25,510 nt of DNA from Nostoc sp. GT001 (GTDB lineage: Bacteria; Cyanobacteriota; Cyanobacteriia; Cyanobacteriales; Nostocaceae). Under the pieces are notes generated by a model. It saw only the letters and a program-made list of their open reading frames with translations. It was not told the origin of the DNA and searched no databases. Where the stretch lies: positions 4,129,382 through 4,154,891 of the forward strand of contig NZ_JAUDRJ010000003.1 in assembly GCF_030382115.1 (NCBI RefSeq), read 5' to 3'. Numbering within the stretch: the stretch's first letter is position 1; every line of letters starts with the position of its first letter. Below, one piece after another: positions 262 through 16,889 of this stretch. Both the position numbers and the translations under genes were made by a program.

Positions 262-636
262 TCAATCATCTATACGCAGTAGCTTGCGGTAAAATGGTTG
301 TGAAAAATCGGTTATACGATAACGTTTATAGTTGTCCATAAGTTCAATTAAAAAATTAATAAACTCGAAACTAGCCATCATCAGTTCATAACTCAGGTCA
401 GCATTGCCATCAAACTGAATTCGGCAACGGGTTAAGTCTGAGGGTAAAGTAGCAACATTCCAGGAGGCGACAAAGGGGACATGTTCGCTGGCTTCTATTT
501 TCCGATGTCCTTCCAAGACGCCTTTTTGATAAAGACTGATGGCATAGGGTAAGAAATTGCGCCTAGCGCCCTGAACATAAGGTAAGTAAACACTGGCTTG
601 TTGTTGAGTTGCAGGCTGGAGTTGCTCAATAGACAT
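262..636 (-). CDS. Conserved cyanobacterial protein, possibly EbsA-like type IV pilus factor
   Basis: A 124-aa soluble protein with no signal peptide or membrane segment. Recognisable conserved stretches are VYLPYVQGARR near residues 16-26, ISLYQKGVLEGHR (33-45) and the strongly conserved-looking LPSDLTRCRIQFDGNADLSYE (64-84). The pattern and length resemble the cyanobacterial EbsA family, which is known to work with the type IV pilus ATPase PilB and Hfq in pilus assembly and biofilm control. That assignment is from memory and tentative. The gene stands alone, has its own terminator just downstream, and is preceded by about 600 bp without a firm gene. No clear Shine-Dalgarno sequence precedes the ATG. 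An alternative is a generic cyanobacterial protein of unknown function. The gene itself is well supported; its function is not. Confidence 0.75.
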   Translation of the reverse strand: MSIEQLQPATQQQASVYLPYVQGARRNFLPYAISLYQKGVLEGHRKIEASEHVPFVASWNVATLPSDLTRCRIQFDGNADLSYELMMASFEFINFLIELMDNYKRYRITDFSQPFYRKLLRIDD

Positions 637-2713: not shown

Positions 2714-2750
2714 AAAAATGCAAAATTACCAAAAATAATTTTGCATTTTT
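2714..2750. terminator. Bidirectional terminator between mgdA and dnaX
   Basis: A perfect 15-bp inverted repeat (AAAAATGCAAAATTA at 2714-2728; TAATTTTGCATTTTT at 2736-2750) with a 7-nt loop. It gives a T-run at the 3' side on both strands. The right arm reaches the first base of the dnaX stop codon (2750-2752), so it can end transcripts of both convergent genes. Confidence 0.85.
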
Positions 2751-4879
2751 TATTCATCATCCACGTCTGCTTCTTCTACCCATTCTGGTGTAGTTATGGA
2801 ATCGGAGAATTCTGGGAAATCATCTGCAAAACGGATAATTTGTCCGTTGAAGAATGTTGCTATACGTTGAGCTCCGATCGCTACTTCATCAGGTTCCCAA
2901 TCAGGTGCGGGTGTTTGTTTTGGGGGTGGAGGCAAAGTTTGCGCCCCATTTCCATTTACACCGTTTCCATTTACACCATTTCCATTTACACCATTTCCAT
3001 TTTTTGCTGCTGTCGGTGCTGGTGGTGGATTAGTTGGCTGTGGTGCTGACGCTGGAGGCGGAATTTGCTGGTTGTAGCTAGGTGTGGGTGGTTGCTGAAC
3101 GCGAGTAGAGTCTTTTGGCGGAGGATTTCTTTTGGCGGAGGTAGAGTTTGAAGAAATTCCTTTTTCTATATTTATCTGGATTTCACGCTGGAAAGTCTGC
3201 TGGAAAGCTGCCGTAATCATCGGTAGATAAGATTTTCCCTTGTCATACCATGCCTGTTTGATAGCAATTCGAGCCATAACACCGTCGAACTCTATAAGTT
3301 GGCTCATTTGACGCAGCATTTCTTGCCTTGATTTTGGCTGGAGGTTGGCAAGCACTTGTTGCCAAATCTGAGTTAAGTCATATTCTGCTTCGCCAACAAC
3401 TTCTGAAGTTACTGGTTCAATGTTCGCAGGTGGCACAGGAACAGCAACAGGTTCTGGGGTTGGTGGTGAAACTGATTTAGCACCAGAATTGTCATTGGTT
3501 TGCTGTTCAACTAGGGGAGATGAAGTGATGGGCTGATTTTGGGCAGCAGCTTGATGATGGTTTAAAGAATTATGATTTGTTTTCGGTTCAGCTACAGGTA
3601 AAGAAGAGACTGGGTGATTTTGGGCAGCCGCTTGATGATGGTTTAAAGAATTATGATTTGTTTTCGGTTCAGCCAGAGGTACAGAAGAGACTGGCTGATT
3701 TTGGGCAACTACTGGAGGATAGCTTGGAGATACAGCAGGATTATTAACTCGCGGCGCGAAACTTGAGGCTTGTGGCTGAATATTCGTCGTCGCACTGGGT
3801 AACAATCCTAGTAATGTTACCTCCAACCACAAACGCGGCTGGGTGGTGTTTTTAATTTGCACTTCTGATGTTCGTAGGTGTTGCTGTCCCGCCAAAATCA
3901 CGCTCATATCGAAGTATTGGGCAAATTCAACCAGCGCTATCCAGGTTTGCTGAGTACAAGCAACCAAATCATGGCGGTTGGGTGCTGTTTTAGCTATGAG
4001 TAAATCGCGGTAAAAAGCAGCGAGATTTTGCAGAATAGTTAGGGGTTCTCGACCACGATCTAGGATGTAGTGAGTACAGTCTAGAACTGCTTCCGGTTTA
4101 TCTTGAGCGATCGCATTTAAAAGGGCTAACAAGTCCTGTTCGCTTACCGTCCCCACCAAATCCCAAACTCGCTCTGGTGTGACTTCACCTGCTAATAAAC
4201 CCAATTGATCGAGTAGACTTTCGGCATCCCGTAAGCCTCCCTGAGAAAGTTGGGCTACCAGGGTGACAGCATCGGGTGAAATATGAATGTTTTCTTTAAA
4301 GGCGATCGCACTTAAATGCTTCACCATCGCCTCTAACTGAATGCGTCTGAAATCAAACCTTTGACAGCGCGAAATAATTGTTGGTAAAACCCTTTGCGGG
4401 TCTGTTGTCGCCAATACAAAAACCACGTGTCTCGGTGGTTCTTCTAGTGTCTTAAGTAGCGCGTTGAATGCCTGGGTACTGAGCATGTGGCATTCATCAA
4501 TAACATAAACCTTGTAGCGACACTGCACAGGAGCAAACTGGGCTTTTTCAATCAACTCGCGGATATTATCGACACCAGTGTTACTAGCAGCATCAATTTC
4601 AATTACGTCTAAGGCATACCCCTTGGTGATCCCCTGACAAACCTCACACACACCACAAGGTTCAGCAGTGGGCTGATCACCTTTGAGACAATTGAGGGAT
4701 TTAGCCAAAATCCGGGCACTAGAAGTTTTCCCCGTACCTCTTGGCCCAGTGAATAAATAGGCAGGGGCAATTTTCGATGTGCCGATCGCGTTCGTGAGGG
4801 TGGTGGCGATCGCCTCTTGGCCCACCAGTTCAGCAAAACTTTTGGGGCGATATTTGTGGTGCAGGGGTTCATAAGACAT
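2750..4879 (-). CDS. dnaX: DNA polymerase III subunit gamma/tau
   Basis: The clamp-loader ATPase of the replicative polymerase. I start it at ATG 4879 (MSYEPLHHKYRPKSF), which gives 709 aa; an in-frame ATG at 4906 would add nine non-conserved residues. In the 4879 numbering the protein shows Walker A GPRGTGKT (45-52, K51), a four-cysteine zinc module (C64, C75, C78, C81), Walker B VYVIDECHML, and a sensor-type SRCQRFDF. The AAA+ and clamp-loader domains end near residue 370. The rest is a low-complexity Pro/Gln/Asn linker with a 27-residue tandem duplication, a tau-like folded segment (about 515-580), and an NGNGV repeat near the C-terminus. No intein interrupts the Walker A region, unlike the intein-bearing dnaX known from Synechocystis. 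It converges on mgdA. Confidence 0.95.
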   Translation of the reverse strand: MSYEPLHHKYRPKSFAELVGQEAIATTLTNAIGTSKIAPAYLFTGPRGTGKTSSARILAKSLNCLKGDQPTAEPCGVCEVCQGITKGYALDVIEIDAASNTGVDNIRELIEKAQFAPVQCRYKVYVIDECHMLSTQAFNALLKTLEEPPRHVVFVLATTDPQRVLPTIISRCQRFDFRRIQLEAMVKHLSAIAFKENIHISPDAVTLVAQLSQGGLRDAESLLDQLGLLAGEVTPERVWDLVGTVSEQDLLALLNAIAQDKPEAVLDCTHYILDRGREPLTILQNLAAFYRDLLIAKTAPNRHDLVACTQQTWIALVEFAQYFDMSVILAGQQHLRTSEVQIKNTTQPRLWLEVTLLGLLPSATTNIQPQASSFAPRVNNPAVSPSYPPVVAQNQPVSSVPLAEPKTNHNSLNHHQAAAQNHPVSSLPVAEPKTNHNSLNHHQAAAQNQPITSSPLVEQQTNDNSGAKSVSPPTPEPVAVPVPPANIEPVTSEVVGEAEYDLTQIWQQVLANLQPKSRQEMLRQMSQLIEFDGVMARIAIKQAWYDKGKSYLPMITAAFQQTFQREIQINIEKGISSNSTSAKRNPPPKDSTRVQQPPTPSYNQQIPPPASAPQPTNPPPAPTAAKNGNGVNGNGVNGNGVNGNGAQTLPPPPKQTPAPDWEPDEVAIGAQRIATFFNGQIIRFADDFPEFSDSITTPEWVEEADVDDE
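2949..3002 (-). repeat. 15-bp minisatellite in dnaX (VNGNG repeats)
   Basis: About three and a half copies of a 15-bp unit containing CCATTTACACC encode repeated Val-Asn-Gly-Asn-Gly in the disordered C-terminal linker of DnaX. The unit is a multiple of three, so copy-number changes keep the frame. Confidence 0.85.
3541..3702 (-). repeat. 81-bp tandem duplication in dnaX linker
   Basis: Two nearly identical 81-bp units start at 3541 and 3622 (each begins GGGCAGC followed by GCTTGATGATGG). Together with a partial third copy after 3702 they encode a repeated 27-residue segment containing AEPKTNHNSLNHHQAAAQN. The repeat lies in the low-complexity tail and keeps the reading frame. Confidence 0.85.
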
Positions 4880-5243
4880 GGAAAAATAGACTTCAATGCC
4901 TTTCAACGTGAATTAGTAGCACCGAGTCGAGTTGAGGATTCAATTATTTTAAACTCTCGTACCTGCTTTGTTGATCGATGTTGCCATAGCCCAAGACTCA
5001 ACTAATGCCGTAAATTTTGGCACTCAGGAAAGCAAGCAACCAGAGCTTATCCTCTACTATGATTTCAACATCAATAGTATGGGAATTATAGCATATCATT
5101 TAGTACATTTGTTCTATTTAAAAAGACTGGAAAGCAGAGGAGAATAACTCTTGACAAATAACAAATGACTATACGTTTTATTTACTGAACTAACGCCATA
5201 GTCCAGTGCGATCGCTACAATTTTATAGATAAAGTAAAACTCG
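4880..5243. other. 364-bp divergent intergenic region (dnaX / 5244 gene)
   Basis: This spacer must hold the dnaX promoter and that of the plus-strand gene at 5244. A TTGACA at 5151-5156 with a TTTTAT at 5176-5181 (19-bp spacing) is a weak promoter candidate for the plus strand. TATAGAT at about 5224-5230 lies too close to the start codon to be an ordinary -10. One HIP1-like GCGATCGC lies near 5208. Nothing else stands out. Confidence 0.4.
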
Positions 5244-5942
5244 ATGGTGCAGCAGATGCTCAAGCGGCTATTTCAATGGCTCAAAAAGCTTTTTCAGAGC
5301 TTGTTTGGTGGAAAACAGACTACCTCAAAATCTAGGGGGAATGTGGAAAAAGAACCAGCACCACCCTTGAGCGATACTGATCTGGAATTTCTCTTCAACG
5401 AACTGTTGCAAGGGGTACATCAAGCACGAGGGGAAGCATGGGCACAGAAGTGGCTGCATAATATTGAACATCGCATCACAACTCAAGACTGGGTTGAGTG
5501 GTTAGGGCGCTTTGGCGACAGATTGCTCGCATCTCCGACACCCAATAATGAAATGGCTGCGCGGTTAGTGCAATTGGGTGAGTTAAAAGTCGGAGAAATT
5601 GGAGATGTTGCCTATAATATCGGGATGCAGTTGTTGACACGCAATGAAGGCGAACCAGTTTGGGAATATGAAGGGCCAGATGCTTTTAGCACTCCTTTGC
5701 CCTCTGAGGTAGTTGCCCCAGTATCAGAGTCAGCAGATGCACCAGAAAACCTCCCAGAGGGAGAATACCAAACTGTCACCCTAGAACAGTTGTTTGTAAT
5801 GTTACAGGAGGATGAAAATTTACGTCAGCAAATTGCTCAACAGCTTGCCGTTGAAACAGACGATCCACAAGTGCTTGTCCAGGCATTAATTAGTCAGTTA
5901 TATCCTGACGGTCAATCGACTACAGAGCAAACTGAAAATTAA
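5244..5942 (+). CDS. Protease-free paralogue of the N-terminal region of the adjacent TPR-CHAT protein
   Basis: A 232-aa protein, function not recognised. It starts with a basic amphipathic stretch (QMLKRLFQWLKKLFQSLFGGK, about residues 4-24) that could touch a membrane or nucleic acid. A compact helical domain follows (about 42-135: LEFLFNELLQGVHQARGEAWAQ... LLASPTPN ... VQLGELKVGEIGDVAYNIG), then a WEYEGPDA motif (W140), an acidic linker, and a second domain (about 172-222: TLEQLFVMLQEDENLRQQ). Each part has a clear counterpart, in the same order, in the first 375 residues of the protein encoded 188 bp downstream, but the TPRs and CHAT protease are missing. Inference: it is an adaptor, inhibitor or substrate of the CHAT protein. 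It has no resemblance to a known toxin. The two genes may be co-transcribed, although the gap is long. Confidence 0.85.
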   Translation: MVQQMLKRLFQWLKKLFQSLFGGKQTTSKSRGNVEKEPAPPLSDTDLEFLFNELLQGVHQARGEAWAQKWLHNIEHRITTQDWVEWLGRFGDRLLASPTPNNEMAARLVQLGELKVGEIGDVAYNIGMQLLTRNEGEPVWEYEGPDAFSTPLPSEVVAPVSESADAPENLPEGEYQTVTLEQLFVMLQEDENLRQQIAQQLAVETDDPQVLVQALISQLYPDGQSTTEQTEN

Positions 5943-6130
5943 CTGCTTGCCAGAATCAAATTCAAGAGTTAAACCTGGGAATTGTAACGTTGTAATGCTA
6001 TGCTCTTGAAGATTTGTATATTTTTTGCTAACCTGCTACGGAAGCGCTGTCCGAATCTAATGGATTTTTACGTAATTGATGATTTTTTTAACACAACGAT
6101 GGCTACAATCTAGAAAAACAAAATCCAAGA

Positions 6131-9100
6131 GTGTGGCAGATGCTCAGGCGGATATCGCAGTCGCTTAAAAGGTTTATAAAGCGCCTCATTGCAAGTAAAC
6201 AGAATAGTTCTCTCAAGGGTGCGAGAGGACGCAATCTGGTGGGGGTACTACCAGAACTAACCAATGCGGATCTGGAACAATTGTTTATCCAATTGTTAGA
6301 AGGCGTGCATCAAGCACGAGGACGACAGTGGGCATTGAGGTATCTGCAACGGATTGAAAATCGCGTTCCGGCTGAACGTTGGATAGACTGGTTGGTGATG
6401 TTTGGTGAAAGCTTGCTAGCTTCACCTACACCAAATCCTCTTTTAGCAACACAGATGGTGCAATTGGGGGAACTTGGTGTTGGCAGAATTGGAGAAGTTG
6501 CTTATGACATTGGCATTCGGCTAATGCAAAACTTACCTACAGAAATAGAAGATTACCCTGACAATCAGGCACAAGATGATGTAGAAATCACTCCTGGGCA
6601 AGAACTGATCCGCGATTTGGGCGAACAGTTATGGGAGCATGATGAGCCAGATGTAATAGAAACTACTCCTGGACAAGAACTGATCCGCGATTTGGGCGAG
6701 CAGTTATGGGAGTATGATGAGCCAGATGTGGTAGAAACTACAACCGATGAAGAAATTATCCCAACTTCTCCTGAACAAGAGCTAATCGTTAGCTTTGGCG
6801 AACAATTATGGGAATATGATGTGCCAGATGTTGAACCAATAACGTCAGCACCTCAAAATGTCTCTTTTGAGGAGACATCGCCCGAAAACTTCGAGGAAGT
6901 GGTATGGGAATATGAAAGGGAAGACGCTCAAGCCACAATACCAGAAAATATCCCTCTCCCGGCAGCGGAAGATTCAATCAGCTTGTTAACTGAATTGAGG
7001 TTTGACGAAGAAGTTGTTGTTCAAATTACAACACCAGTAAATCTCCTTTCCACTAGACAAAAGACTGAATTAGCAACGTCTCCCTCGGTGGAAACCTGGG
7101 ATAACACTTTGACGAATTTAGAGCCAAATGTGGCTAATACTTTAGATGAGTTGTGGGTAAGGTTGGATCAAAGTACCAATTTAGTCCAGCAACTTGCTTC
7201 TGATTTGGCTGTTCAAAGCAGTAATTCCCCTGGTATTATTGAGCGGCATAGTGATAATCCGATTACCCACGCTCAAGGGTGGTTTTACCAAGGTCTTCAG
7301 CAAGCGAAAACAGGCGATCTGTTAGGTGCGATCGCATCTTATGACCAAGCTATTGAAATGCAACCCGAATTCTCAGAATATTGGTTTAATCGAGGCTTAA
7401 CGCTGTTCCATTTAGAACGTTTTGATGAAGCGATCGCGTCTTATGAAACAGCCATAGAATTGAAGCCAGACTTCTACAAAGCTTGGTACAACCGGGGTGG
7501 AACTCTCGGAGAATTAGGATATTTTGAAGAAGCGATCGCTTCTTTTGACAAAGCTATAGAAATCAAGCCAGACTATCAAGAAGCGTGGTCTAGCAAGGGT
7601 TTGGCACTGCTGAAATTAGGTTGGCTACCAGAAGCTATTGCTAGTTATGACCAAGCGCTACAACTCGAACCAGAAGACCAGGAAAACTGGTATCACCGAG
7701 GCATAGCCCTAGCTGTCAGCGAACAATTTGCTGAGGCAATTATATCTTATGACAGAGCTATAGAAATTAACCCAGAATACCATGAAGTTTGGATAGACCG
7801 GGGTGTAGTACTGTTTAATTTGGGAAGGTGGTCAGAAGCGATCGCCTCCTGGGATAAAGCACTTTCAGTTCAAGCCGACTTCTACTTAGCTTGGTACAAC
7901 CGAGGTATAGCATTAGACAATTTAGGACGGAGAGAAGAAGCGATCGCCTCCTATCGGCAAGCGATCGCCATTAAACCCGACTTCCACTTAGCTTGGTATA
8001 ATCAGGCAATAGCACTGTTTAATTTAGAACAATTTGCCGAAGCGATCGCTTGTTATGACAACGCTTTGCAAATCAAACAAGATTATTGGGAAGCTTGGAT
8101 TGGTCGGGGAACTGCGATCGGTCATTTAGTGAATTATGACGAATTACTGAATTTGCCGAGTAGTATCACAGCGACAAATCCCGCTTTACAACAGGGCGGC
8201 TACGAAGGAAAATTAGCCAGCTACGAAGAAGGGTTAAGGCATCTGCGGACAGATACCCATCCAGAAGGTTGGGGGAGATTGCATTTTGCGATCGCTAATA
8301 CTTACTACGAAGAAGGTAAAAAACATACCAATACCCGCGATTATTGGCGCAAAGCTGCATCTGAGTACCATCAAGCGCTGTTAACCCTGACATTAGAATA
8401 TTTTCCCCAGTTGCATTTAGAGGTTTTACAATCTCTAAGCAAAGTTTTGATGGGTTTGGGACAAACCACACAAGTTCAAGAATTGCTGCAACGCGGGACA
8501 GATTTATTGCGACAATTACTGAGTGAAGAAACTCGCTCAGACGAAAGTAAAAAACAGCTAGCTCTAAAATTTCTAGGCTTCGATCAATTGGCAGTTGATT
8601 TAGCTGTGGAATCGGGTGATTTAGTAGAAGCTTGGGAAATTGCCGAACAAGGTAAAAATGCTTGTTTAAACTGGCTGCTTTCTGGCTGGAATCATAATAT
8701 TTACTCGCCTTATTATGGCGCAATTCAACAACTATTCAATCCCACAACAGCAATTATTTACTGGCATATTAGCCCAGTTGCCCTACATACTTTCATTCTC
8801 AAAGACCAAGCGCCATCACCAATTCTCCTGTTTACACCCATGCAAGATACTGGGCTAATACCTTTAGGAGAAGATGCTATTCGTCTCAATGAATTGCCTC
8901 TACCCGAAGCAGTGCAGCGCCTAATTGAATTTGAAATTTGGCTAGAAGATTGGCATCAACAATACCAAGAATATCGCAGCACAGCCCACGACAAAGAAAG
9001 TAAAAGTCACCATTCTTGGCGAGTTGAAATGGAAGAGAAACTGTTGCAACTGTATGAAATCCTAAATATTTCCACAATTGCACAGGAACTCGAAGGCATC

Positions 9101-9997
9101 ACCCAACTGGTCTTAATTCCTCACCGTGACTTGTACAGATTGCCCATTCATACACTTTTCCATCTTTCTTCACCATCACCAGAAGATTTACCCAACGTAG
9201 AATCAAATTTCAGCGTCACCTATCTACCTAGTGCCCAAATAGGTTTATCAATCAGAACTGAGGATATTTGGCAGTGGCAAAATAAGTTCTTGCTCAGTGT
9301 TGAACATCCTGAAAGTACAGGTTATCCCACACTTAAATTTGCCAAACTGGAGTCTGAAGTTGTTAGCCAGATGTTCAATAATATCCAACGAATTCAGGGG
9401 GTAGAAGCAACGAAAAATATTGTCGGAAATGCCTTATCTGATAATTATAATATCTTGCATTTTACGGGTCATGTCACTAATAATTTAGCTGAACCTAAAA
9501 AATCAGAATTAGCATTAGCAGGTGAAGACAGACTTACTCTAGATGAAATCTGCCAACAAAATCTAGATAGTTACAATCTTATTACCCTCTCTGCCTGTGA
9601 AAATTTAAGTACTAACAACTACACTATCAGCAGCGAATATGTGAGTTTAGTCAGTGGTTTTGTAACTCAGGGTGTACCTCATGTAGTGAGTACTCTCTGG
9701 AGTGTAGAATCTTCGGCTAGTGCCTTGGTGATGATCGAGTTTTACCGGCGATTACAGCCTAATAAATCAGCAGTTATTGCTTTAGCCGAAGCAACACGAT
9801 GGCTAAAAGAACTAACTGCTGGAGAACTGACAAAATGGTATGAAGAGATCTTAAATAATCTGCATCCAGAGGAAGTAAGAATTCAAACTTATTTAGCGAC
9901 ACAACTATATAGAAATAGTAAAATGGCATCAGACAAAATTCTTTATAACCATCCTTACTACTGGGCAGCTTTTACGATTATGGGTAAGCCGAATTAA
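6131..9997 (+). CDS. TPR-CHAT protein (caspase-like protease) with basic N-terminus and WEY-motif linker
   Basis: A 1288-aa protein. The start is GTG 6131, or ATG 6140 three codons in; both keep the QMLRR start shared with the upstream paralogue. Order of parts: basic N-terminus (1-25); helical domain (about 45-135) ending in the VQLGELGVGRIGEVAYDIG stretch; acidic linker with four WE(Y/H)(D/E) motifs (W168, W193, W227, W259); a second short domain (about 335-370); eight TPRs plus a partial ninth (about 381-660, period 34, e.g. AWYNRGIALDNLGRREEAIASYRQAI); a helical region; and a CHAT domain (about 960-1288). The CHAT dyad is intact: LHFTGH (H1114) and LSACEN (C1156), with the usual HPYYWAAFTIMG ending. 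CHAT domains belong to the caspase/separase clan, and many act as proteases on a partner. Its substrate is unknown. It is not obviously HetF, the shorter membrane-linked CHAT protein of heterocyst control. Confidence 0.92.
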   Translation: MWQMLRRISQSLKRFIKRLIASKQNSSLKGARGRNLVGVLPELTNADLEQLFIQLLEGVHQARGRQWALRYLQRIENRVPAERWIDWLVMFGESLLASPTPNPLLATQMVQLGELGVGRIGEVAYDIGIRLMQNLPTEIEDYPDNQAQDDVEITPGQELIRDLGEQLWEHDEPDVIETTPGQELIRDLGEQLWEYDEPDVVETTTDEEIIPTSPEQELIVSFGEQLWEYDVPDVEPITSAPQNVSFEETSPENFEEVVWEYEREDAQATIPENIPLPAAEDSISLLTELRFDEEVVVQITTPVNLLSTRQKTELATSPSVETWDNTLTNLEPNVANTLDELWVRLDQSTNLVQQLASDLAVQSSNSPGIIERHSDNPITHAQGWFYQGLQQAKTGDLLGAIASYDQAIEMQPEFSEYWFNRGLTLFHLERFDEAIASYETAIELKPDFYKAWYNRGGTLGELGYFEEAIASFDKAIEIKPDYQEAWSSKGLALLKLGWLPEAIASYDQALQLEPEDQENWYHRGIALAVSEQFAEAIISYDRAIEINPEYHEVWIDRGVVLFNLGRWSEAIASWDKALSVQADFYLAWYNRGIALDNLGRREEAIASYRQAIAIKPDFHLAWYNQAIALFNLEQFAEAIACYDNALQIKQDYWEAWIGRGTAIGHLVNYDELLNLPSSITATNPALQQGGYEGKLASYEEGLRHLRTDTHPEGWGRLHFAIANTYYEEGKKHTNTRDYWRKAASEYHQALLTLTLEYFPQLHLEVLQSLSKVLMGLGQTTQVQELLQRGTDLLRQLLSEETRSDESKKQLALKFLGFDQLAVDLAVESGDLVEAWEIAEQGKNACLNWLLSGWNHNIYSPYYGAIQQLFNPTTAIIYWHISPVALHTFILKDQAPSPILLFTPMQDTGLIPLGEDAIRLNELPLPEAVQRLIEFEIWLEDWHQQYQEYRSTAHDKESKSHHSWRVEMEEKLLQLYEILNISTIAQELEGITQLVLIPHRDLYRLPIHTLFHLSSPSPEDLPNVESNFSVTYLPSAQIGLSIRTEDIWQWQNKFLLSVEHPESTGYPTLKFAKLESEVVSQMFNNIQRIQGVEATKNIVGNALSDNYNILHFTGHVTNNLAEPKKSELALAGEDRLTLDEICQQNLDSYNLITLSACENLSTNNYTISSEYVSLVSGFVTQGVPHVVSTLWSVESSASALVMIEFYRRLQPNKSAVIALAEATRWLKELTAGELTKWYEEILNNLHPEEVRIQTYLATQLYRNSKMASDKILYNHPYYWAAFTIMGKPN
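6590..6725 (+). repeat. 75-bp tandem duplication in the TPR-CHAT linker
   Basis: Two near-identical copies, 75 bp (25 codons) apart, share CTGATCCGCGATTTGGGCGA and encode TPGQELIRDLGEQLWE(H/Y)DEPDV. A third, more diverged copy follows (W227) and a fourth remnant (W259). The repeat multiplies the WEYDxPD motif within an acidic linker. Confidence 0.9.
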
Positions 9998-10044
9998 TCT
10001 TTTGAAACTTAATCAAAATAATTCGTAATTGATAATAACGTTCG

Positions 10045-10086
10045 ATAGCGTTAGCGCAGCGTCTCTCATTCTCTACGAGGCGCTGT
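10045..10086. repeat. GCGTTAGCGCAGCG hairpin repeat
   Basis: The stretch includes a stem of GCAGCGTCTC (10056-10065) with GAGGCGCTGT (10077-10086), 10 bp counting two G-U pairs, preceded by AGCGTTAGC. Elements of this type are dispersed in Nostoc genomes. It lies about 50 bp after the TPR-CHAT stop and might also act as a terminator, although no T-run follows. Confidence 0.6.
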
Positions 10087-10167
10087 ACATATATATTACA
10101 TAAACTCTAGCGATTTACCGTAAATTTAAGATATAATTTTCGTCTCAATCAGTGGTAGCTAAAGTTT

Positions 10168-11049
10168 ATGAACATTATGAACACTGTCTATGTTTCAGAT
10201 TTAGACGGTACATTGCTTGGAGATAATGCAATTCTTTCTTTGTTAAGCAAGAAAGTCCTTCACGAACTCTTGCATCAAGGATTACAGTTTACTGTGGCTA
10301 GTGCGCGTAGCGTTGTTTCTATGCAAATGATGCTGAAAGGTTTGAATCTTACTCTACCGATTATCGAATTTAATGGTGCTTTTATTTCTGATTTGGATTC
10401 TGGCAGACATGAAATCATTAACTCTATTTGTCCTTCTGTAGTTGAAAGTATCTACAAACTTATCCTAGAGTTCGGCTGTGTTCCGTTTGTATCTAGTTTT
10501 AATGGCAGAGAAGATTGTGCTTACTATAAAGATGTAATTAACGACGGTATGCGATGGTATCTTAACGATCGCCTAACAAGCAAAGACCGAAGATGGCGAA
10601 CAATTGAAGATTTGATGCATTCTTTTGGCGATCAAGTTGTTTGTCTGACCGTGATTGGGCACGCACAACAACTGCTCGAACTTCAAGGTGCGATTATTCA
10701 AAAACATGGAACTACCGTAGAGACACACTTGATCGAGAACCAATACTCTCCGGGGTGGTACTGGTTAACAATTCATGACTGCAAAGCTACTAAAGACCAA
10801 GCTATTCGGACTCTGGTAGAGAATTATGGGTTACAGGAAAGTGAGATTGTGGTCTTTGGAGATCAAATTAATGACATCAAAATGTTCAAAATTGCTGATC
10901 GTGCCATTGCAGTTGCTAACGCAGATGCCGAACTCAAGCGTTACTCGTCATTGGTAATTGGCTTAAATACAGAAGACAGCGTGGTTAAATACATTCGTCA
11001 GGATTGGTCGAACAAATGTGCTATGAAATCGGACTCTGACATACGCTAG
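10168..11049 (+). CDS. HAD superfamily (Cof-type, subclass IIB) phosphatase
   Basis: A 293-aa protein of a size typical for Cof-type haloacid dehalogenase-like phosphatases, which hydrolyse small phosphorylated sugars or cofactors. Motif I is SDLDGTL (nucleophile D11, acid D13), motif II lies in TVASARS, motif III is Lys in ATKDQAI (K209), and motif IV is GDQIND (D232, D236). The cap lies between motifs II and III (about 85-195). The substrate cannot be told from sequence. The start is ATG 10168; ATG 10177 (fourth codon) is equally possible. The gene stands alone, between a dispersed repeat upstream and a transposase remnant downstream. The last 15 or so residues after the final helix look unconserved. 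Confidence 0.88.
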   Translation: MNIMNTVYVSDLDGTLLGDNAILSLLSKKVLHELLHQGLQFTVASARSVVSMQMMLKGLNLTLPIIEFNGAFISDLDSGRHEIINSICPSVVESIYKLILEFGCVPFVSSFNGREDCAYYKDVINDGMRWYLNDRLTSKDRRWRTIEDLMHSFGDQVVCLTVIGHAQQLLELQGAIIQKHGTTVETHLIENQYSPGWYWLTIHDCKATKDQAIRTLVENYGLQESEIVVFGDQINDIKMFKIADRAIAVANADAELKRYSSLVIGLNTEDSVVKYIRQDWSNKCAMKSDSDIR

Positions 11050-16223: not shown

Positions 16224-16889
16224 TTAAGGTCGCTTGATTGCTAAAGTAAGTCCATCGGCGATGGGGACAAGGGAGAGAGTAACTCGTTCATCATGATGTA
16301 ACTTTTCGTTCAGCGCTCGGATTGCTTGGGTGCTTTCATCTTGATTTTGCTCATCAGCTACTTGTCCAGACCATAAAACATTATCGATCGCAATCAATCC
16401 ACCTGGACGAACTAATTGCAGCGATCGCTCATAATATCCATCATAATTTTCTTTATCAGCATCAATAAAGGCAAAATCAAAAGTTTCGGCTTGCCCAGTT
16501 GCCAATAGCCGATCTAAAGTTTCCAAAGCTGGTGCTAATCGGAGATCGATTTTATCAGCAACCCCAGCTTCTTGCCAATACCGCCGAGCGATCGCAGTAA
16601 ATTCTTCACTCACATCACAAGCGATAATTTTCCCATCAGCTGGTAGTGCCAAAGCTACAGAAAGTGAGCTATAACCCGTAAACACTCCAACTTCTAGGGT
16701 TTTCTTCGCTCCAATTAACTGCACCAGAAGGCTCATAAACTGCCCTTGTTCTGGTGAAATCTGCATTCCACTCCGGGGATGATTGGCGGTTTGTTGGCGC
16801 AACTTTTCGAGAATTTCTGGTTCTCGCAGCGAAACAGATAAAAGATAATTGTAGAGTTGGTTATCAAGACCTATAGACTGTTTTGGCAT
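16224..16889 (-). CDS. SAM-dependent O-methyltransferase (Methyltransf_3 / CCoAOMT-like)
   Basis: A 221-aa class I methyltransferase that moves a methyl group from S-adenosylmethionine to a catechol-like hydroxyl, usually with a divalent metal. The SAM motif is [18 protein letters not shown] (about 64-81); ACDV (about 90) binds the adenosine side; the FIDADKENY stretch (about 140-148) and the later DNVLWSG (about 169-175) provide metal-binding Asp and Asn residues. Length and motifs fit the small cyanobacterial group typified by Synechocystis Slr0095, known for methylating caffeate-type phenols. The natural substrate is unknown. It is divergent from the lipoprotein gene at 16957 (67 bp between starts) and converges on the SLH gene. 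Confidence 0.92.

Follow-up and report, generated by a model that had tools for sequence, protein, structure and literature searches.

A small gene paired with a TPR-CHAT gene beside dnaX in Nostoc: a probable scaffold family with recurrent loss of the CHAT catalytic pair

Several described systems resemble parts of the locus reported here. Csx29 of type III-E CRISPR (Craspase) has TPRs followed by a CHAT domain, its catalytic residues being H615 and C658 (available portion of PMC10028731), and a TPR-CHAT protein was described as a regulator of Cas7-11 (PMC11089037, accessible text). In Anabaena, HetF contains CHAT within aa 1-555, one predicted transmembrane segment and TPR, as far as stated in the accessible part of PMC8406250, and was reported to be a CHAT protease that cleaves PatU3 (available section of the review PMC12288457). 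Cyanobacterial pseudo-orthocaspases, in which the catalytic His/Cys are replaced (Tyr/Ser), are widely kept according to the accessible section of PMC6426788. Effector-associated and bacterial Death-like domains, as presented in the available part of PMC8195603, are small, helical, terminal and multi-copy, and are coupled to other modules.

The window analysed here is a stretch of 25,510 nt from Nostoc sp. GT001 (assembly GCF_030382115.1, contig NZ_JAUDRJ010000003.1, positions 4,129,382-4,154,891). Both open reading frames of the pair delimited in a first-pass annotation were recovered at the same coordinates (Table 1). According to the starts of relatives, the real start of the small protein is probably Met5 (position 5256), giving 228 aa, and that of the large protein is probably Met4 (ATG at 6140).

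Table 1. Positions of the gene pair, its domains and the neighbouring dnaX gene in the window
Feature	Position	Strand	Content or basis
dnaX (DNA polymerase III gamma/tau)	2750..4906	-	divergent conserved neighbour
Small gene	5244..5942	+	amphipathic helix, N-domain, WEY motif and C-terminal three-helix domain; 232 aa
Basic amphipathic N-terminal helix, small protein residues 3-21	5250..5306	+	moment 0.64, z 3.4, net charge +6
N-domain, small protein residues 44-132, five predicted helices	5373..5639	+	pLDDT about 80-91
WEYEGPD motif, small protein residues 140-146	5661..5681	+	alignments of relatives
C-terminal short helical domain, small protein residues 180-219	5781..5900	+	AlphaFold2 model; profile
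Large gene	6131..9997	+	N-domain, WEY repeats, short helical domain, TPR and CHAT; 1288 aa
N-domain and amphipathic helix, large protein residues 4-133	6140..6529	+	BLASTP to small protein; profiles
Three 75-nt repeats with GEQLWE(Y/H)D.PD motif	6574..6825	+	direct-repeat family D4
Second copy of short helical domain, about residues 334-374 of large protein	7130..7252	+	BLASTP; profile
TPR superhelix, large protein residues 384-671	7280..8143	+	Pfam, profiles, model
CHAT domain, large protein residues 971-1286	9041..9988	+	PF12770, E 2.6e-41
His1114 codon (catalytic position)	9470..9472	+	alignment to Csx29; orthologue alignment
Cys1156 codon (catalytic position)	9596..9598	+	alignment to Csx29; orthologue alignment

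The AlphaFold2 model of the small protein (42 aligned sequences; mean pLDDT 67.5) consists of an N-terminal helix at residues 3-21, which is modelled with low pLDDT, the five-helix N-domain, a low-confidence linker and three C-terminal helices. The N-terminus had been called basic, and the helical-moment computation found the stretch to be basic and amphipathic. Of 85 N-only proteins, 95% have a net charge of at least +3 at the N-terminus, and so do 72-73% of 43 N+TPR and 85 N+TPR+CHAT proteins. Residues W140, E141, Y142, P145 and D146 are unchanged across 35 close small-protein sequences, and E141 is unchanged across 19 diverse sequences. The profile of the short C-terminal domain matched all N-only proteins of the own bacterial family (62/62). 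For the small protein, Pfam and NCBIfam yield nothing above a curated cut-off, and PADLOC and PHROG yield no match; the N-domain hits no Pfam family at E <= 0.01 among the 19 members scanned, both it and the short helical domain stay below the curated cut-offs of the family libraries scanned, and a structure search with the small-protein model gave no convincing fold match. At locus L090, the profile of the short C-terminal domain matches a second time (E 1e-22), 3' of the end of an N-only gene (9643-10293), within a 125-aa ORF (10181-10555) that begins inside this gene and ends beyond it; the ORF is perhaps a separate small gene.

In the large protein, Pfam gives eight TPR_1 stretches and the CHAT domain, in agreement with the architecture initially proposed, and the PF12770 score is 142.4 bits against a curated cut-off of 24. 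H1114 and C1156, whose catalytic positions were assigned by sequence alignment, align with the catalytic His and Cys of Csx29 chain 7y9x_B in a weak phmmer alignment (E 0.11), and both residues are intact in the Nostoc window protein, as originally noted. In the model of residues 131-1288 (mean pLDDT 67.8 overall), a long TPR superhelix is followed by a CHAT-like region of lower, only moderate confidence; in a Foldseek search with this model TPR proteins rank first, and Csx29 and separase chains appear farther down. The WEY motif pointed out earlier is indeed present in both proteins, but it is not single in the large one, where it lies in a 25-codon unit present three times in frame. The 89% identity of two of the three copies of this 75-nt unit points to a recent internal duplication.

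The large protein resembles Csx29 in the order of TPR and CHAT and in the alignment of the His and Cys positions, whereas its N-terminal part differs, the dyad is not conserved among its orthologues (see below), and it scores 44.6 bits with the NCBIfam Csx29 model, far under the cut-off of 300. The genomic setting of Csx29 (cas7-11, csx30 and a CRISPR array) is also different: among the window neighbours scanned, namely the ORFs up to 23803 apart from the shortest, no cas gene and no Cas family was found, and none of the direct-repeat families in the window is CRISPR-like. HetF is likewise a protein with CHAT and TPR in a heterocystous cyanobacterium, but its CHAT lies in the N-terminal half, ahead of a transmembrane segment and TPR (accessible part of PMC8406250), the order in the large protein being N-domain, TPR and CHAT.

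The two proteins of the pair are related to each other. BLASTP aligned residues 4-162 of the small protein with 3-190 of the large protein (40% identity, E 3e-40), and residues 179-213 with 337-371 (37% identity, E 7e-4), so the shared parts stand in the same order in both, as had been claimed. Within the own genome, the small protein has four matches, its own gene and three segments of the large ORF. A tree of 110 N-domains, which took in 15 of 72 loci of the own bacterial family, places the small and large copies of this family as sister groups (support 0.999). The paralogy asserted in the first-pass annotation is thus borne out, and the sister grouping indicates that the two genes arose by duplication in the ancestor of the own family; judged from these comparisons, it was an N-domain gene beside dnaX that was duplicated there. 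Homotypic contact between the shared domains is plausible.

Relatives of the small gene were searched with the small protein, and the best 80 of 149 matched loci were kept. In 77 of these 80 loci, the large N-TPR-CHAT gene lies directly downstream on the same strand, with a gap of 143-806 (median 245), which confirms the expectation that the small gene stays next to a TPR-CHAT gene. Among the three others, the contig ends just past the small gene at one locus (L305), and no large gene was found within 6 kb downstream at two (L264 and L291). Conversely, the fetched stretch lacks a small gene at 10 of 69 large-gene loci of the own family; at least eight of these 10 genomes have the small gene elsewhere, for example about 336 kb from the large gene on the same contig in G363. 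The complete genome G142 possesses only the small gene and no N-domain CHAT gene.

Such strong linkage, together with the intact H1114/C1156 of the window protein and of 49 of 128 orthologues and with the precedents Csx29/Csx30 (available portion of PMC10028731) and HetF/PatU3 (available section of the review PMC12288457), speaks for an active CHAT protease with the small protein as its regulator, decoy or substrate, brought in by homotypic contacts. This explanation is weakened by the fate of the catalytic pair. Both residues were kept in 25/69 of a first orthologue set, from which L044, L121 and L161 are absent as they have no N+CHAT ORF. In an enlarged set, the pair was lost in 79 of the 128 orthologues; these were chosen by the N-domain and comprise the first set and the loci of the best 80 of 149, with 18 of 147 large sequences removed as identical after residue 200 and with L121 left out as its ORF runs off the contig. 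The commonest losses are replacements of His by Tyr (22), Gln (15) or Arg (10) with Cys kept. At five loci of one genus (L039, L042, L043, L128 and L167), the large protein stops short of the catalytic His at nearly the same place and retains part of the CHAT domain; these loci still have the small gene next to it.

On a tree built without the two dyad columns, at least 27 separate losses are required if loss is irreversible, and 21 changes if reversals are allowed. The His1114 column changes in 28 steps, more than about 80% of the 308 CHAT columns (median 15), and the Cys1156 column, with 16 steps, is about average. Fold-core positions such as H998, P1005, Y1031 and W1278 show 1-2 steps each (this list of slow positions comes from the row set that still includes L121). 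Judged from these alignments, the dyad was lost time and again, whereas the fold core and the gene pair persisted. Outside the own family, the dyad is kept in 7/16 relatives and lost in 9/16.

Two other CHAT families were read as controls. The first, another TPR-CHAT family of the own genome chosen by its CHAT region, has matches in 29/49 family genomes; 31 loci were read, one of which (L220) does not contain the positions, and both residues are kept in 30/30 readable loci, down to about 30% identity, where the loci are probably not orthologues. Selection by CHAT similarity favours intact copies, and a second control was therefore added, a CHAT protein searched by the 300 residues that precede its CHAT domain, with matches in 46/49 genomes. 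This family has several copies per genome, and the best-scoring 30 loci, one per genome at 55-78% identity, all keep His and Cys. As both controls are intact in 30/30 loci, the decay of the dyad belongs to the N-domain TPR-CHAT family and is no artefact of the method, and the catalytic pair is not conserved across its orthologues in the way that an enzyme family would show.

The small gene adjoins 42 dyad-negative and 35 intact large copies among the best 80 of 149 loci. If the pairing were due to proteolysis, the small gene would be predicted to fade beside dead enzymes; no fading was seen, which argues that a function other than proteolysis preserves the pair. The small gene of G142 stands against the protease explanation as well. 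The role of regulator, decoy or substrate first suggested for the small protein consequently does not fit as a general function, and we consider it unlikely as an account of the pair. Since the catalytic residues were lost repeatedly while the gene pair was kept, the pair is probably mainly a protein scaffold. We favour, with a probability of about 0.6, the reading that it is one lineage's form of a cyanobacterial family of membrane-tethered TPR scaffolds, in which CHAT is drifting to a pseudoprotease. Both proteins would sit on the membrane by the basic helix and assemble by means of the domains that they share; clients may be bound by the TPR and CHAT parts, CHAT acting mainly as a binding module. 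Where the dyad survives, as in the Nostoc window, some proteolysis may remain, which would not be what holds the genes together. His and Cys persist in many Nostoc copies; together with the window protein and the seven dyad-positive outside relatives, this suggests that activity may matter in some lineages; the pooled dyad count could hide selection for the dyad within some clades.

The pseudo-orthocaspases are similar in being caspase-fold proteins with replaced catalytic His/Cys that are widely kept (PMC6426788, accessible section), but those are p20 orthocaspases, whereas the TPR-CHAT family here has a paralogous partner and shows many independent losses inside one orthologous set. Within this set, the passage from enzyme to scaffold in one caspase-fold family can be followed as a natural series. 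For a single TPR-CHAT protein, finding both catalytic residues is no evidence that the gene is kept for proteolysis.

The N-domain is present in 214/217 genomes of the own family, 210 of which have at least two matches, and in 165/195 genomes drawn from the own order. Outside the order, 4 of about 108 genomes have it (from a class-wide draw of 116, a first pass that scored part of the candidates). Among 104 N-domain ORFs in 81 loci, classed with profiles for TPR and CHAT, 35 are without TPR or CHAT, 42 are N+TPR and 27 are N+TPR+CHAT; as the 81 loci are the top of a ranked list, these proportions are not those of the own order. Pfam gave TPR-type families or nothing above cut-off for nine further N-domain proteins without CHAT. 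The objection allowed for at the outset, that the shared domains are a generic family with many unrelated partners, is right as to a wider family, in which the N-domain occurs alone, with TPR or with TPR and CHAT, but not as to unrelated partners, since the profiles looked for TPR and CHAT and the only Pfam matches of the nine proteins were TPR-type.

It had also been stated that no nuclease, CRISPR or NTPase sensor is adjacent; this leaves out of account the divergent neighbour dnaX, an AAA+ clamp-loader gene. It lies inside the fetched stretch in 38/81 N-domain loci and directly beside the N-domain gene in 32, in 15 families, and an RNase H gene is often found on the other side outside the own family. 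The place between dnaX and the RNase H gene holds one to three N-domain genes, whose architecture varies by lineage: N+TPR alone at L045, N+TPR+CHAT alone at L052, and two N+TPR plus one N+TPR+CHAT at L078 and L091. Genes for a glycosyltransferase and a 124-aa protein are also syntenic with N-domain genes, and the whole block may thus simply be conserved. The link with dnaX is one of genomic context, and it would be quite a long shot that this family, nearly confined to one order, is a membrane-tethered scaffold between dnaX and rnhA that links the replication machinery to the membrane or cell cycle, a caspase-like protease having repeatedly turned into a binding module paired with an assembly-domain-only paralogue. 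Unnamed in the libraries scanned, near-universal in its bacterial family and beside dnaX in fifteen families, the N-domain is a candidate for a core cyanobacterial function.

This distribution bears on two further explanations. The pair might be a conflict or cell-death module of the effector-associated type, in which the N-domain would serve as the homotypic adaptor and CHAT as the effector, and the multi-copy small helical N-terminal domain with TPR and a caspase-like domain does resemble the organisation in the available part of PMC8195603. However, the N-domain sits at a conserved chromosomal locus, theirs being sporadic conflict loci, and no sequence match to effector-associated or Death-like domains was found for it in the libraries scanned. 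Near-universality (214/217) beside housekeeping dnaX and the usual loss of the effector dyad also disagree with such a module, as does PADLOC, which gave only generic TPR-type matches for the large protein, nothing for the small one and, on ten neighbours, only a weak DnaX match and a methyltransferase match to mad2. Nucleotide records matching the N-domain include no phage record and three plasmid records. We regard a conflict module as very improbable.

A second proposal takes the small gene as a remnant of the duplication that does little by itself, which would suit the single N-domain gene of many complete genomes outside the own family (5/5 in family f14 and 5/6 in f8, with a frame of about 320-405 aa). 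It is hard to reconcile with the 62 unvarying columns across 35 small-gene sequences of 66-90% identity and with retention of the gene in G142 without the large gene and at unlinked places such as G363; we hold it to be very doubtful, and prefer the scaffold reading.

Several minor observations were also made. The plasmid matches are N-domain-like stretches of Tolypothrix/Microchaete (NZ_CP063787.1:83023-83358, NZ_CP064881.1:97369-97704 and AP018235.1:2-337), annotated as TPR or prenyltransferase-alpha proteins. Two tandem N-domains occur in single proteins at L100:8177-9148 (-), at about 435752-436435 of G144:C4 and at about 4778918-4779562 of G170:C1, and these proteins are natural fusions. 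In the window, dnaX carries three 81-nt in-frame repeats past the ATPase region (3485-3727). The 124-aa protein (262-636, minus strand) has no Pfam match at E <= 1e-5, and its relatives lie near N-domain genes in 15/81 loci. The gene at 16224-16889 (minus strand) encodes an O-methyltransferase (PF01596) with a partial PADLOC match to mad2 (E 1.6e-21), and is read as an ordinary methyltransferase despite this match. Finally, 22 places of the own genome match PF12770, one of which lies about 21 kb downstream of the large gene (C3:4160504).
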